A DNA stretch of 64,000 nt from Sulfuriflexus sp. (GTDB lineage Bacteria > Pseudomonadota > Gammaproteobacteria > AKS1), in contig JAGLUW010000004.1 in assembly GCA_023134145.1 (NCBI GenBank), positions 1 to 64,000 on the forward strand. The letters run 5' to 3'. Under the pieces are notes generated by a model. It did no database searches. It worked only from the letters and a program-made list of their open reading frames with translations, and was not told where the DNA came from. Positions 5,783-30,807 of this stretch are shown here, one piece after another. Numbering within the stretch: position 1 is the first letter of the stretch; the number at the start of each line of letters is the position of its first letter. The translations under genes were made by a program, and so were the position numbers.

Positions 5783-6226
5783 ATGTCAAAATTCTGGATA
5801 CTTGTAGCAAACAGTAGTCATGCCCGTTTTTTTACCACTGATACGGATTCTGCAGCATTGCAGGAAAGAGAAGACCTAGTCCACCCGGAATCACGCGAGC
5901 ATGCCCGTGACCTTACTAGCGACTTACCCGGTAAACAGCATGATGCCAATGCGTCTGGTCACCATGCTGCGGATACAACGAGTGACCCGCACGCAGAGGA
6001 AGTGATTCATTTTGCCCGGGAGGTTGCTGATCATTTACGAGAAAAATTAATGGGCAATGAATTCTCTCACCTAGTGGTTGTTGCTGAGCCTTCTTTTTTG
6101 GGTGTGTTACGTAATGAATTTGATGCACAGGTAAAGAAGGTGGTGACATTGGAAGTAAATAAAAATCTGGTTAAACACTCGCTGGAAGATATTCGTGCGC
6201 ATTTACCAACGAGCCTGCCTGTTTAA
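5783..6226 (+). CDS. Host attachment family protein (PF10116-like), copy 1
   Basis: 147-residue soluble protein of the family named for attachment of Agrobacterium to host cells. Structurally it belongs near the release-factor-1/baeRF-like fold; the true role in free-living bacteria is unclear. Family marks: FWILVANSSHARFF at the start, the DLTSDLPGK segment, a His/Asp-rich loop (HDANASGHHAADTTSDPH), the helix EVIHFAREVADHLREK, and FSHLVVVAEPSFLGVLRN with terminal EVNKNLVKH. AGGAGG 7 bases before the ATG sets the start. A near-identical paralog is at 23525-23968, including its upstream region. Confidence 0.85.
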   Translation: MSKFWILVANSSHARFFTTDTDSAALQEREDLVHPESREHARDLTSDLPGKQHDANASGHHAADTTSDPHAEEVIHFAREVADHLREKLMGNEFSHLVVVAEPSFLGVLRNEFDAQVKKVVTLEVNKNLVKHSLEDIRAHLPTSLPV

Positions 6227-17612: not shown

Positions 17613-18917
17613 TTACTCAGCACCTCTCGGTTTACTTTTTGTTGGCGCTTGCATAGGTAAGCCATTCGCCAGACTTGTTATATAAAGTTCCATATCAATA
17701 TATTCATCTGAGCCTAAATTTTGCGGGTAAGTTTGGGTGACGATTTGGCAATGACGGATACGTTGTTGTAAACCAATTAATCCTAAGTCATGCAGTGCGA
17801 CAAAGTGTTTTGGCCACGTTGCTGCGGTATGGCGGTGTTTCCCTTCAGCTTGGATACTACTGAGTGCTTGTCCTCGTAGCCATTTATTAGCCGCATCGAC
17901 ATGACAATTTGCACAAGAGAAACTCAGTTGACCGGTTTTTTTATAAAAGGATTGTTCACCTCGTCGTAGAGCCTCTTTTGTATGTGTATTAGCGACGATC
18001 TTTATGGGTGTGTTTCTCGATAAATACTTCACATAGGCACTTAATGTATTGGAGGAACGGCTACCTAATTTATAAGGATGACTATTCGTATATTTTTGGC
18101 GACAGTGATTATTGCGTGTCTCGATGAGCATGATCTTATCCAGCTCGTGATCATATTTTGGGTAGCTGGTGGCAATGTTTTTAAGATCAGGGCCTTTGGC
18201 GTTGTTTGAAGTATGACAGCTGGCACAGGACTGACCATTCTTCCCCAGTTTATTGAATAGTGCCTGGCCTTCTTCAATATAGATATCGGCCAGCGTCAGA
18301 TCTTCACCTGCGACATAGTAGTTGGGTGAATCTATTTGAGGTCGTGCCGGTGCTGCAACAGGTGTGTTGAGCGTTTCAAGATAGGCGATGAGGTGCATCA
18401 CTTCATGTGCTGATAATAAACCATTAGTACCAAGTGGTGGCATCAGGGTGTTGGGCTTATGTGCGCGCGCATCCCATATTTGCTGGAAGCTGTAGTCACG
18501 TGAACGTCCAAGATTTGCATAGTTGCTTAAGTTAGGGCCTACATTACCGGCTTGGTCAAATTCTGCTCCCATAATATGACAGCTTAGGCAGCGGCCTTTG
18601 CTGTTAGCCAGTTGTTTGCCCTTAATTGGATCACCTTGCATGGAAGGCAGCGCAGGGCGCTGTATATCTCGCATGCTTTTATTGTCGGTGTAGCTAATAG
18701 TTGGAAATTTTTCTATGCCCTTGGTGATAGCACCATGATGCCCACCTGCATGATGACCTCCGCCATGCTTCATCTTCATATGATGCGATTTCTTATGTGG
18801 TGAAGCGGTTGAATGCTCTTTTTCGGCATGGAGCGGATAATGAATAGTTAGTAATAACAACGATAGCAATAAGTTTTGCAAAAAAGAGATTGATTTTATG
18901 GACTGTGAAGGTGACAT
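17613..18917 (-). CDS. SoxX-SoxA fusion cytochrome c (thiosulfate oxidation)
   Basis: 434-residue periplasmic multiheme cytochrome. A signal peptide (1-31, YPLHA/E) is followed by a His-rich segment (HHMKMKHGGGHHAGGHH, about 45-61). The N-terminal half (about 95-185) is SoxX-like: heme site C110-L-S-C113-H, GNVGPNLSNYANLG, and axial Met159 in TLMPPLG. The C-terminal half (about 195-430) is SoxA-like: C231-A-S-C234-H, IATSYPKYD, ETRNNHC, RRGEQSFYKKTGQLSFSCAN with C335-A-N-C338-H, then R386-I-R-H-C390, matching the SoxA arginine plus active-site (persulfide) cysteine spaced four apart, and a LYITSLANGLPMQAP end. SoxA and SoxX are normally separate subunits. No soxYZ, soxB or soxCD lies in the window. 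The fusion is seen; the activity is inferred. Confidence 0.85.
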   Translation of the reverse strand: MSPSQSIKSISFLQNLLLSLLLLTIHYPLHAEKEHSTASPHKKSHHMKMKHGGGHHAGGHHGAITKGIEKFPTISYTDNKSMRDIQRPALPSMQGDPIKGKQLANSKGRCLSCHIMGAEFDQAGNVGPNLSNYANLGRSRDYSFQQIWDARAHKPNTLMPPLGTNGLLSAHEVMHLIAYLETLNTPVAAPARPQIDSPNYYVAGEDLTLADIYIEEGQALFNKLGKNGQSCASCHTSNNAKGPDLKNIATSYPKYDHELDKIMLIETRNNHCRQKYTNSHPYKLGSRSSNTLSAYVKYLSRNTPIKIVANTHTKEALRRGEQSFYKKTGQLSFSCANCHVDAANKWLRGQALSSIQAEGKHRHTAATWPKHFVALHDLGLIGLQQRIRHCQIVTQTYPQNLGSDEYIDMELYITSLANGLPMQAPTKSKPRGAE

Positions 18918-19025: not shown

Positions 19026-19058
19026 ATAAAAAAACCGTCCACAAGGGACGGTTTTTTG
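19026..19058 (-). terminator. Strong bidirectional intrinsic terminator after the chemoreceptor gene
   Basis: CCGTCC and GGACGG pair around a 5-base loop, flanked by A6 and T6 tracts, so it works on either strand. It lies just beyond the chemoreceptor stop (19074). Confidence 0.85.
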
Positions 19059-23503: not shown

Positions 23504-23524
23504 ATTTTAATAAAGGGGAAGATG

Positions 23525-23968
23525 ATGTCAAAATTCTGGATACTTGTAGCCGATAGTAGTCATGCCCGTTTTTTCACAGCTGATACGGCTTCTGCAGCAT
23601 TGCAGGAGAGAGAAGATTTCGTCCACCCGGAATCACGCCAGCATGCCCGTGATCTTACTAGCGACTTGCCAGGCAAACAGCATGATGCCAATGCTTCCGG
23701 TCACCACGCTACAGATACAACGAGTGATCCGCACGCAGAGGAAGTGATTCATTTTGCCCGAGAGGTTGCCGGTCATTTACGGGAGAAATTAATGAGCAAT
23801 GAATTCTCTCATCTGGTGGTGGTTGCGGAGCCTTCTTTTTTGGGTGCGTTGCGTAATGTGCTTGATGCACAGGTCAAGAAGGTTGTGACACTGGAAATAG
23901 ATAAAAACCTAGTCAAACATTCGCTAGAAGATATTCGTGCGCACTTACCAACGAGCTTGCCTGTTTAA
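23525..23968 (+). CDS. Host attachment family protein (PF10116-like), copy 2
   Basis: 147-residue paralog of the protein at 5783-6226, differing at about a dozen positions (for example VADSSHARFFTADTAS against VANSSHARFFTTDTDS). All family blocks are kept: DLTSDLPGKQHDANASGHH, EVIHFAREVAGHLREK, FSHLVVVAEPSFLGALRN and EIDKNLVKHSLEDI. Two ATGs stand in tandem at 23522 and 23525; the second matches the start of copy 1. GGGGAAG lies just upstream. Nucleotide differences are largely silent, so both copies look maintained by selection. Function in this organism is unknown. Confidence 0.83.
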   Translation: MSKFWILVADSSHARFFTADTASAALQEREDFVHPESRQHARDLTSDLPGKQHDANASGHHATDTTSDPHAEEVIHFAREVAGHLREKLMSNEFSHLVVVAEPSFLGALRNVLDAQVKKVVTLEIDKNLVKHSLEDIRAHLPTSLPV

Positions 23969-27093: not shown

Positions 27094-27693
27094 TTGGGAT
27101 GGATAGTGTTTAAAAAGTATCTGGTAGTGGTTTTTATTCTGATCTGGATTGCATTGGCGATTAATCCTATTGATCGCGGTATCTGGATGCTAGAGAATCT
27201 GGTTGTTGTCACTATTTTCCCAGCGGTTCTTTGGTTAGATAAAAAATATAATTTTACAAATTTCACTTTCCTCTGTTTGACGGTTTTCGTTGTATTACAT
27301 CTATTTGGTGCACACCTGACCTACGAGAAGATGGCTTATTTTACCTGGCTATCGGATTTATTTGGCCTGCAAAGAAATTATTATGACCAGATTGTGCATT
27401 TCCTGTTTGGTTTATTGGTATTTATGTCGTTTTATGAAATATCTTTGCGTCAGGGCTTATCACGAAAATTAAGTTATCTGATTGCTTTTCTTTTTATATC
27501 AAGCATTAGCTCCTGGTATGAGATTTTGGAATGGTTTGCAATGGCTGCCTTCTGTGATGCGACTGACTGTGTAGCTCTTATCACTCAAGGAGATGAATGG
27601 GATGCGCAAAAGGATATGCTATACGCTATTTTTGGAGCACTTATTACTATGACGCTACATAGTGCAAAAGGAATAGAAACAAGCCGTCACTGA
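27094..27693 (+). CDS. DUF2238/YjdF-family inner-membrane protein
   Basis: 199-residue polytopic membrane protein of the DUF2238 (YjdF) family. About six hydrophobic segments are visible. Family landmarks are [20 protein letters not shown], the [20 protein letters not shown] block with the conserved Y-D-x-x-[17 protein letters not shown], and [19 protein letters not shown] with the Asp-Gln-Asp group. These charged residues inside membrane helices suggest an enzymatic or transport role, not known. The frame begins with TTG at 27094; a GTG at 27106 with GGGAT upstream is an alternative start and keeps the first helix. It precedes the kinase/phosphatase/glycosyltransferase operon by 32 bases. 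Confidence 0.78.
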
Positions 27694-28699: not shown

Positions 28700-29590
28700 A
28701 TGCAACTGACACCTGAAAATCTTACCTCCCTTTCTGAATGTGCTATTAACGCAGCGAAACAAGCAGGTGCATTGATTTCAAGTTATGCGAATAAATCGGT
28801 AGCGGTTGAACATAAAGAAGGTGGTGACAGTATTGCATCACAGGTTGTTACTGAAGTTGATCTGCTTAGTGAAAAAATTATTACTAAAGTACTTTTACCA
28901 ACTTGCGAGAAATATGACCTTGCCTTATTAACCGAAGAGAGCGAAGACGACAGAGAGCGGCTTGAAAAAGATTATTTCTGGTGTGTTGACCCTATGGACG
29001 GCACGCTCGCTTTTACTGAATCAACCTCCGGGTATTCTGTTTCTATTGCTCTGGTATCGAAATCAGGAGAGCCGATAATTGGCGTTGTCTATGACCCAGT
29101 AACGCATACTTTATATTCAGCAGTGAAGGGGCAAGGTGTCTCGCGTAATGGTAAACCATGGACTCTTACTTCTACATCGATACAGGACAAGTCGTTAACT
29201 CTGGTTTGTGATCGGGGTTTTGTTGAAAAGCCTTACTATGCAGATGTATGCAAGGCACTTGAACCGATTGCAATTAATTATGGTTATTCAGGCCTACAGA
29301 CACAGGAAAAGAATGGCGCGGTATTGAATGCCTGCTTTGTATTAGAGAATCCAGCTGCTATTTATTTTAAATTCCCGAAACCGGAACAAGGTGGCGGTAG
29401 TTTGTGGGATTTTGCGGCAAGTGCGGCACTTTTTCATGAACTGGGGTTCATCGCAACAGACTTTTATGGTGATTCGCTAGATTTGAATAGAGCCGATTCA
29501 ACGTATATGAATCACAGAGGTGTGCTCTTTACTATGGATCAATCACTAGCTACTGAAATTCAGAAGCTAGTGAGATTGCTTAATAAATGA
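28700..29590 (+). CDS. Inositol monophosphatase/CysQ-family phosphatase
   Basis: 296-residue Mg-dependent, lithium-sensitive-type phosphatase of the IMPase/3'(2'),5'-bisphosphate nucleotidase superfamily. Metal-binding motifs: LLTEESEDD (the E-E motif, about residue 77), DPMDGTLAF (about 98-106, motif DPxDGT) and SLWDFAASAALFHELG (WD motif). The middle stretch GVVYDPVTHTLYSAVKGQG is typical. Substrate choice between inositol-phosphate, PAP and a sugar bisphosphate cannot be read. It starts two bases after the kinase and overlaps the glycosyltransferase by ATGA (29587-29590), so it is translationally coupled to it. Confidence 0.85.
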   Translation: MQLTPENLTSLSECAINAAKQAGALISSYANKSVAVEHKEGGDSIASQVVTEVDLLSEKIITKVLLPTCEKYDLALLTEESEDDRERLEKDYFWCVDPMDGTLAFTESTSGYSVSIALVSKSGEPIIGVVYDPVTHTLYSAVKGQGVSRNGKPWTLTSTSIQDKSLTLVCDRGFVEKPYYADVCKALEPIAINYGYSGLQTQEKNGAVLNACFVLENPAAIYFKFPKPEQGGGSLWDFAASAALFHELGFIATDFYGDSLDLNRADSTYMNHRGVLFTMDQSLATEIQKLVRLLNK

Positions 29591-30807
29591 AAAAGATCTT
29601 GGTCATTGGTTATGTGTGGCCTGAGCCGAATTCATCAGCGGCAGGTCGGTATATGATGTCGATCTTGCGTTTGTTTAGGCAACAAGATTGGCAGGTTGAA
29701 TTTGCAACACCCGCGCAACCCACCGATCACATGATTGATCTGGCTAGTGAAGGTATTACAAGTCAGGAGATAAAACTTAATTGTGATAGCTTTGATACGT
29801 ATGTTGCGGAATATCAACCTGATATCGTAATGTTTGATCGTTTCATGATGGAAGAGCAATTTTCATGGCGGGTTGAGAAACAATGTCCTGATGCCCTTAA
29901 GATATTAGATACCGAAGATCTGCAGTGCTTACGACAAGCACGTCATGAAGCCGTTAAAGCCGATCGGGATATGACACAAGTCGATCTTTTTAGTGATATT
30001 GCTAAACGTGAAATAGCAGCCATTCTTCGCTGCGATCTTTCTTTGATTATCTCTAGTTATGAAATGGAATTGTTAACTAAGACATTTAAGGTTGATGCCA
30101 ATTTATTACATCATCTACCTTTTATGGTTGAACTTGAAACTTGCCCAGACCAAACAAAATCATATTCTGAACGACAAGACTTTATAAGTATTGGTAATTT
30201 TCGTCATGCACCCAATTGGGATGCGGTATTGCAGTTGCAAAAGATCTGGCCATTGATTCGAAAAAAATTACCAGAAGCTGAATTACATATTTATGGTGCC
30301 TATCCGCCACCTAAGGCGACTGCCTTAAATAATTCCAAAACGGGTTTTCTAATTAAAGGCTGGGCTAAAGATGCCTTAGCCGTAATGGAACAATCTCGAA
30401 TCTGCTTGGCACCATTACGCTTTGGTGCAGGTATTAAAGGGAAATTATTAGAAGCAATAATTATGCAAACACCTAGCGTGACCACTTCTGTTGGTAGTGA
30501 AGGTATGCGTCAAGATGAACCTTGGGCGGGGATAATTAAGGATGATTGGCAAGAATTCGCAGATGCAGCAGTTAACCTATATAACGATCAACAAGCTTGG
30601 ACTAAAGCACAACAGCATGGGACTTCTCTATTAAAATCATACTATGATGCTAAGCAGTTAAGCGAAAAATTAATTACAAGAATAAAGAATATAGAAGACA
30701 ATTTATCTGAACACCGTTCAAATAACTTTACTGGCAGCATGCTTAAGCATCATTCGATGGCGAGTACTAAATATATGTCGCAGTGGATTGCTTTAAAAAA
30801 CAAATAA
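29587..30807 (+). CDS. Glycosyltransferase, GT4-like (group 1)
   Basis: 406-residue GT-B-fold glycosyltransferase. The N-terminal half starts MKKILVIGYVWPEPNSSAAG, typical of acceptor-binding domains. The C-terminal half has DFISIGNFRHAPNWDAVLQL, ELHIYGAYPP, AVMEQSRICLAPLRFGAGIK and GKLLEAIIMQTPSVTTSVGS, the E-x7-E-like nucleotide-sugar site of GT4 enzymes. The last 50 residues (NIEDNLSEHRSNNFTGSMLK) are extra. It overlaps the phosphatase gene by four bases. With the kinase and phosphatase, it suggests synthesis of a small glycoconjugate or envelope sugar. No polymerase or flippase is adjacent. Donor and acceptor are unknown. Confidence 0.83.
   Translation: MKKILVIGYVWPEPNSSAAGRYMMSILRLFRQQDWQVEFATPAQPTDHMIDLASEGITSQEIKLNCDSFDTYVAEYQPDIVMFDRFMMEEQFSWRVEKQCPDALKILDTEDLQCLRQARHEAVKADRDMTQVDLFSDIAKREIAAILRCDLSLIISSYEMELLTKTFKVDANLLHHLPFMVELETCPDQTKSYSERQDFISIGNFRHAPNWDAVLQLQKIWPLIRKKLPEAELHIYGAYPPPKATALNNSKTGFLIKGWAKDALAVMEQSRICLAPLRFGAGIKGKLLEAIIMQTPSVTTSVGSEGMRQDEPWAGIIKDDWQEFADAAVNLYNDQQAWTKAQQHGTSLLKSYYDAKQLSEKLITRIKNIEDNLSEHRSNNFTGSMLKHHSMASTKYMSQWIALKNK

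Follow-up and report, generated by a model that had tools for sequence, protein, structure and literature searches.

The stretch of DNA analysed here (64,000 nucleotides, henceforth referred to as the window) carries on its reverse strand a gene, soxXA, which encodes a single protein of 434 amino acids counted from its ATG start, in one uninterrupted frame. Read from the N- to the C-terminus, the protein consists of a signal-like start, a segment rich in histidine, methionine and glycine, a SoxX domain, a short linker and a diheme SoxA domain (see Table 1 for the coordinates of all features). The three closest relatives of the protein (see below) have a similar hydrophobic start. The gene is flanked by hrpA on one side and by an MCP (chemotaxis receptor) gene on the other. 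A terminator-like hairpin separates it from the MCP gene, which lies upstream, and suggests that soxXA may be transcribed separately. We found no Rfam matches at 13-24 kb of the window. The base composition of the gene is unremarkable (GC 43.8%, GC3 38.4%; the 45 window ORFs of at least 150 amino acids have a mean GC3 of 38.0 with a standard deviation of 3.9), so that we draw no conclusion from composition about a recent horizontal gain.

Table 1 Features of the soxXA locus (window coordinates; residue numbers refer to the encoded protein).
Feature	Coordinates	Strand	Evidence or remark
soxXA fusion gene	17613..18917	−	ORF, NCBIfam matches, fused relatives
Probable Sec signal peptide, residues 1-31	18825..18917	−	cleavage site (between HYPLHA and EK) placed by eye
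His-rich (His/Met/Gly) segment, about residues 35-62	18732..18815	−	
SoxX domain, residues 106-183	18369..18602	−	TIGR04485, 79.4 bits (cut-off 61)
SoxX heme c motif, C110-x-x-C113-H114	18576..18590	−	aligns with 3oa8_B and 1h31_B
Met159, probable distal ligand of the SoxX heme	18441..18443	−	aligns with Met of 3oa8_B
SoxA domain, residues 210-426	17640..18290	−	TIGR04484, 167.8 bits (cut-off 110)
SoxA heme 1 motif, C231-x-x-C234-H235, diheme type	18213..18227	−	
C272, probable distal ligand of heme 1	18102..18104	−	aligned with Cys of R. sulfidophilum SoxA
SoxA catalytic heme motif, C335-x-x-C338-H339	17901..17915	−	invariant in 75/75 SoxA domains
P369-K370-H371-F372 in place of SoxA Pro-x-aromatic-Arg	17802..17813	−	active-site Arg missing
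R386-I-R-H-C390, catalytic Arg and heme-ligating Cys	17748..17762	−	
Terminator-like hairpin between the MCP gene and soxXA	19029..19057	−	pattern scan only

A preliminary description of the locus, made from the sequence without database searches, had read the protein as a natural fusion of a SoxX-like and a SoxA-like part. The profile searches that it proposed bear this out: each half exceeds the cut-off of its own equivalog model (Table 1), and generic cytochrome profiles, a better fit to which would have spoken against the naming, score lower on the protein. Comparison with PDB sequences gave SoxA chains as the best matches (1h31_A with E = 1.6e-20, 2c1d_A and 3oa8_A) together with the SoxX chain of 3oa8, and a profile built from eight fused proteins additionally detected the SoxX chains 1h31_B and 2c1d_B. 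Since both equivalog cut-offs were passed and solved SoxA and SoxX chains matched first, we regard the SoxX and SoxA names as correct. The gene itself is real, because a scan of a genome collection recovered a fused protein 65% identical to that of the window from an independent MAG (locus L009). We therefore consider it confirmed that the region encodes an intact triheme SoxX-SoxA fusion, with SoxX placed N-terminal to a diheme SoxA in a single chain of three hemes, as in the published fused SoxXA of Halorhodospira.

Including the window protein, we collected 11 complete fused proteins, all of which pass both the SoxA and the SoxX cut-offs. Specifically, 41 of the 369 genomes in a sample of Gammaproteobacteria had a match at E ≤ 1e-25, with five full-length fusions besides the one in the window, and 43 of the 398 genomes in a sample of the phylum had a match at E ≤ 1e-40, with the window protein as the sole fusion; weaker fusions could escape these two limits. 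Within the order to which the genome of L009 belongs, 3 of 40 genomes (L009's own counted in) had a match at E ≤ 1e-35; in this order genome G764 has two fusions of different kinds and genome G784 also carries a fusion. Another fusion lies on a plasmid of Indioceanicola profundi. A scan of the class of genome G747 gave no new member (its sample was largely the same as that of the Gammaproteobacteria, as seen from identical contig coordinates), and two scans of a collection of viral contigs gave no relative. G747 also has a second His-rich fusion copy on contig C69 (L142/L146), a fragment which ends soon after the first heme motif.

We then placed the fused proteins among separate SoxA and SoxX proteins in two trees, having removed low-coverage domain matches and duplicate sequences before building the trees and before the residue counts given below. 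The SoxA tree comprised 73 of 75 rows (the distant rows L014 and L121 were omitted) and the SoxX tree 61 of 63 rows (those beginning L007 and L119 were omitted) with 107 columns, which is a small number. In the SoxA tree the window protein forms one clade with L009, L140 and L141 (group A; support 100/99), its three relatives being 52-66% identical to it and coming from other species. Five further fusions form group B (100/99), and the remaining two, group C, are mixed with adjacent separate soxX-soxA genes in a 70-row tree. A single origin of all 11 fusions was rejected on the SoxA data (p-AU = 0.0017), as was a single clade of 8 fusions on the SoxX tree (p-AU = 0.0007); a clade uniting groups A and B was not rejected on the SoxA tree (p-AU = 0.36), and group B was not coherent on the SoxX tree with its 107 columns. 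Given that one clade of all fusions is rejected, the SoxX-SoxA fusion has, on these trees, arisen at least twice. The members of group A are spread over two different orders (G000 is absent from the scan of the order of L009's genome) and the fusion is absent from the three other genomes of the window's genus, one of them 80% complete; this distribution suggests that group A was gained by transfer or repeatedly lost. The description of the group A clade rests on four sequences.

The heme motifs, Met159 (in TLMPPLG), R386 and C390 were found where the preliminary description had placed them, and all aligned with solved SoxAX structures. In the SoxX part, the column of Met159 holds methionine in all eight fused proteins aligned. 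In the SoxA part we compared 75 SoxA domains, i.e., the four of group A and 71 others. The first cysteine of the heme 1 motif (C231) is present in 41 of these 71, and the cysteine corresponding to C272 in 63 of the 71 as well as in all four members of the clade; another six of the 71 have histidine in this column. Such a histidine is seen in group B fusions (L046 9704-11014, L047, L048 and L145; ...VARHAKATTG...), suggesting that their heme 1 may be ligated differently. C390 is conserved in all 75 domains, and R386 is arginine in the whole of group A and in 69 of the 71 others, the remaining two (L040 and L151, both separate SoxA proteins) having lysine in place of the arginine of RxxxC (EKFIGC), an arginine that the accessible text of PMC4423706 calls invariant in SoxA and TsdA. 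The region of C390 aligns with the SoxA active site, with C390 and R386 corresponding to Cys222 and Arg218 (in PDB-chain counting) of R. sulfidophilum SoxA. Altogether, Cys390, Arg386, Arg348 and all heme motifs are retained in the four group A proteins.

SoxA carries a Pro-x-aromatic-Arg motif in the stretch that runs from its catalytic heme motif to the heme-ligating cysteine; in all four members of group A this motif reads Pro-Lys/Arg-His-Phe/Tyr. Column 372 is phenylalanine or tyrosine throughout the group and arginine in every one of the 71 other SoxA domains and in all three PDB chains; column 371 is histidine in the group and aromatic in all 71 others; column 370 is basic in each of the four. 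All fusions of groups B and C keep the arginine at column 372. An HMM built from the 71 non-clade SoxA domains alone aligned the four group A members nearly identically. These pocket residues were read from alignments alone, a predicted structure being set aside at a pLDDT of 31.9. According to PMC4423706, SoxA has one more invariant arginine (Arg232 in R. sulfidophilum), whose position would favour coordination of thiosulfate. We infer that this is the PxYR arginine missing from group A, because it falls at chain position 206 and is the sole arginine of the stretch that is invariant in the 71 other domains and the three PDB chains; the arginine matching R386 is excluded as the sole invariant one because of the two lysines in its column. 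The window protein would accordingly have Phe372 where SoxXA has this additional invariant arginine.

The histidine-rich stretch which the preliminary description had noted after the signal peptide is real: with 9 histidines in 30 residues, the protein ranks top of the 57 window ORFs of at least 100 amino acids. All four group A members have such a segment after the signal peptide, differing in length and sequence, and their richest 30 residues contain 6 to 9 histidines (at most 4 in the fusions of groups B and C). Among 139 SoxX- or SoxA-bearing frames examined as a control, four ORFs from outside the clade, all of one family, reach 8 histidines in 30 residues. Their stretches occupy residues 17-47 of stop-to-stop frames in which the SoxA domain starts near residue 145, and probably lie upstream of the true start. 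We think that the tail of group A is probably a transition-metal site. PMC4423706 mentions a published alternative to the cysteine mechanism of SoxAX that relies on copper, which makes the tail worth testing and implies nothing beyond that.

No sox operon surrounds the fusion and no sox gene adjoins it, and the earlier statement that the window holds no other sox gene is correct for the families searched, i.e., SoxA, SoxX, SoxB and SoxY. Following its suggestion to look for sox genes elsewhere in the genome (2.32 Mb in 40 contigs, 89% complete), we found a separate SoxX (C37:174961-175191), a separate SoxA which has no CxxCH at heme 1 (C17; 210-1046 of L004), an adjoining soxB (C17:1718-3430) and a SoxY (C38:680-1138). 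These pieces lie at contig ends and are probably parts of one canonical operon broken by assembly, given that G001, a one-contig genome of the same genus, holds soxX, soxY, soxA and soxB in a single run (L054). As the window genome has a separate soxX and soxA, its fusion is an additional copy. The same is true of group A as a whole, since each of its four genomes, the window's included, has SoxA and SoxX matches apart from the fusion; those of G747 comprise one adjacent complete pair and another, partial set at contig ends. Off its main sox operon, G001 has a second separate SoxX/SoxA pair (L053 7764-9325, − strand), with SoxA similarity of the 3oa8 type.

We did not find a conserved gene neighbourhood around the fusions compared (window, L009, L140 and L144). 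The fusion in L009 is flanked by a DUF2238 gene and an ung-like gene (identified by eye), that in L140 by a glycosyltransferase gene and that in L144 by genes for a porin and a SoxH-like hydrolase. In G784 a SoxH-like hydrolase gene is adjacent to the fusion and a rhodanese gene is near, a sulfur-related setting peculiar to this genome among the four of group A. Several other genes of the window recur near SoxXA copies. Homologues of its DUF2238 membrane protein (27094-27693, + strand; 65% identical) and of its glycosyltransferase (29587-30807, + strand; 73% identical) are immediate neighbours of the fusion in L009 and L140, respectively, and in the window these two genes are about 8-11 kb from the fusion. 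A 142-amino-acid protein with no Pfam match (1315-1743, + strand) has counterparts in L053 (1191-1649), L146 (4141-4452) and L009 (2500-2715), and at each place an extra SoxXA copy or a fragment of one is no more than about 16 kb away; the protein is 85-90% identical in G001 and G747, against just 65% between the fusions of G000 and G747. The window also contains a pair of Host_attach (baeRF family 12) genes that closely resemble each other (5783-6226 and 23522-23968, + strand).

Other fusions occur in a different genetic context. In two genomes that are 98% and 99% complete (G136 and G285), the fusion is the sole SoxA and the sole SoxX over the cut-off, with SoxB and SoxY present, and on the I. 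profundi plasmid soxY, soxB and a probable soxC (assigned by eye) come after the fusion. All three of these fusions belong to group B and, judging by gene content, show that a fused SoxXA can replace the two-chain enzyme. Several genomes (e.g., G001, G022 and G784) have two or three SoxXA sets.

Fused SoxXA as such is already known. Halorhodospira has a triheme SoxXA in which SoxX forms the N-terminal part, joined to SoxA (PMC8877833), and a fused SoxAX occurs in Beggiatoaceae (PMC11172852). Going by the published descriptions, these proteins, like that of the window, combine SoxA and SoxX in one chain, and the order of domains in Halorhodospira is the same; the accessible text of the two reports mentions neither a His-rich tail nor a missing arginine. 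According to the same text, no individual SoxX gene was found in Ca. Parabeggiatoa (PMC11172852), whereas the window genome has a separate soxX and soxA. Within the open-licence literature searched, a His-rich, arginine-lacking clade of accessory SoxXA looks new.

The SoxAX proteins of R. sulfidophilum and P. pantotrophus (1h31-1h33/2oz1 and 2c1d) share with the window protein the heme motifs, RxxxC, the catalytic cysteine, the distal cysteine of heme 1 and the SoxX methionine. They differ from it in being made of two chains with Pro-x-Tyr-Arg, as opposed to one chain with Pro-Lys-His-Phe, and have no His-rich tail in the aligned stretches. The structures 3oa8/3ocd, which we take to be a Starkeya-type SoxAX, resemble the window protein in the longer loop that precedes Trp-Pro (ATWP) and share its RxxxC, but the SoxA of 3oa8 has no CxxCH at heme 1 and keeps Pro-Thr-Tyr-Arg, whereas the SoxA part of the window protein is diheme and without that arginine.

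Taken as a reading of sequence, these observations lead us to favour, with a probability of roughly 55%, an accessory periplasmic triheme SoxXA paralogue which has kept the disulfide-forming chemistry of the cysteine-ligated heme and has changed its substrate pocket. The protein would be exported as a one-chain triheme cytochrome, consisting of the His-rich tail, SoxX with its His/Met heme and diheme SoxA. A reduced sulfur compound would be joined oxidatively to Cys390, which ligates the catalytic heme. The two electrons would reach the SoxX heme through the chain and then leave to a soluble cytochrome, and a thiol would take over the sulfur adduct, the cysteine of SoxY in SoxYZ being the most likely acceptor. 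The fusion would set the ratio of SoxX to SoxA at 1:1 and keep the donor and acceptor hemes together. Chemistry of the SoxAX type is to be expected because the catalytic residues and heme motifs listed above are kept in all four members, and a different substrate, affinity or partner is likely because the pocket of the window protein has Lys370-His371-Phe372 and not the putative thiosulfate arginine.

The strongest competing explanation, possible and clearly less probable than the reading just given, is that of an ordinary, redundant SoxXA isoenzyme which conjugates thiosulfate to SoxYZ, with Lys370 standing in for the lost arginine and the tail being incidental. It agrees with the scores above both equivalog cut-offs, with the group B fusions that are the only SoxXA of their genomes or sit in a sox operon, with the multiple SoxXA sets of single genomes and with the basic residue at 370 throughout group A, which might substitute for the arginine and leave the substrate unchanged. 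Against it speak the loss, in group A alone and together with the preceding aromatic residue, of an arginine found in all other SoxA domains, and the His-rich tail kept by every member. A more far-reaching version of our favoured reading, which we offer tentatively, makes group A a distinct SoxXA-derived enzyme that has dispensed with the thiosulfate-binding arginine in favour of another sulfur species, with a metal held by the tail taking part; its substrate may then be sulfide, persulfide, sulfite or an organic thiol.

Two other functions appear improbable. An enzyme resembling TsdA or acting on free thiols, which would yield tetrathionate or polysulfide independently of SoxYZ, would be in keeping with the catalytic domain family that the window protein has in common with TsdA (PF21342; 4wq7 and 4v2k) and with the distance of the gene from other sox genes. 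However, TsdA chains matched the protein at E = 0.007, far more weakly than the SoxA chain 1h31_A, the second domain of TsdA is unlike its counterpart here, and two SoxA cytochrome domains joined to SoxX amount to the architecture of SoxXA and not of two-domain TsdA. Still less credible is a periplasmic cytochrome without catalytic function that has kept the SoxXA scaffold and serves to carry electrons or to handle metal: the His/Met-rich tail of all four members and the arginine missing from the pocket would suit it, but a mere carrier has no need of the Cys390, Arg386, Arg348 and complete set of heme motifs which all four preserve. Finally, an assembly or frameshift artefact that merged two neighbouring genes can be dismissed for practical purposes, for although the related loci L102 and L029 have soxX and soxA as adjacent separate frames in the same order, with at most a dozen bases between the stop-to-stop frames, the frame of the fusion runs through 440 codons without interruption and three other genomes have the same fusion, including a linker that can be aligned, so that independent assemblies refute the artefact.

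PMC4423706 describes SoxAX as highly resistant to mechanistic analysis. With SoxX and SoxA in one chain, the stoichiometry of the three hemes is fixed, a natural variant that lacks the putative thiosulfate arginine and occurs beside a canonical SoxXA in one cell provides a ready test of the role of that arginine, and the His-rich tail offers a direct handle on the question of metal in SoxAX. If group A does use another substrate and hold a metal in its tail, this would bear on the dispute over copper in SoxAX and, as regards the substrate, on how a cysteine-ligated heme selects what it acts upon.
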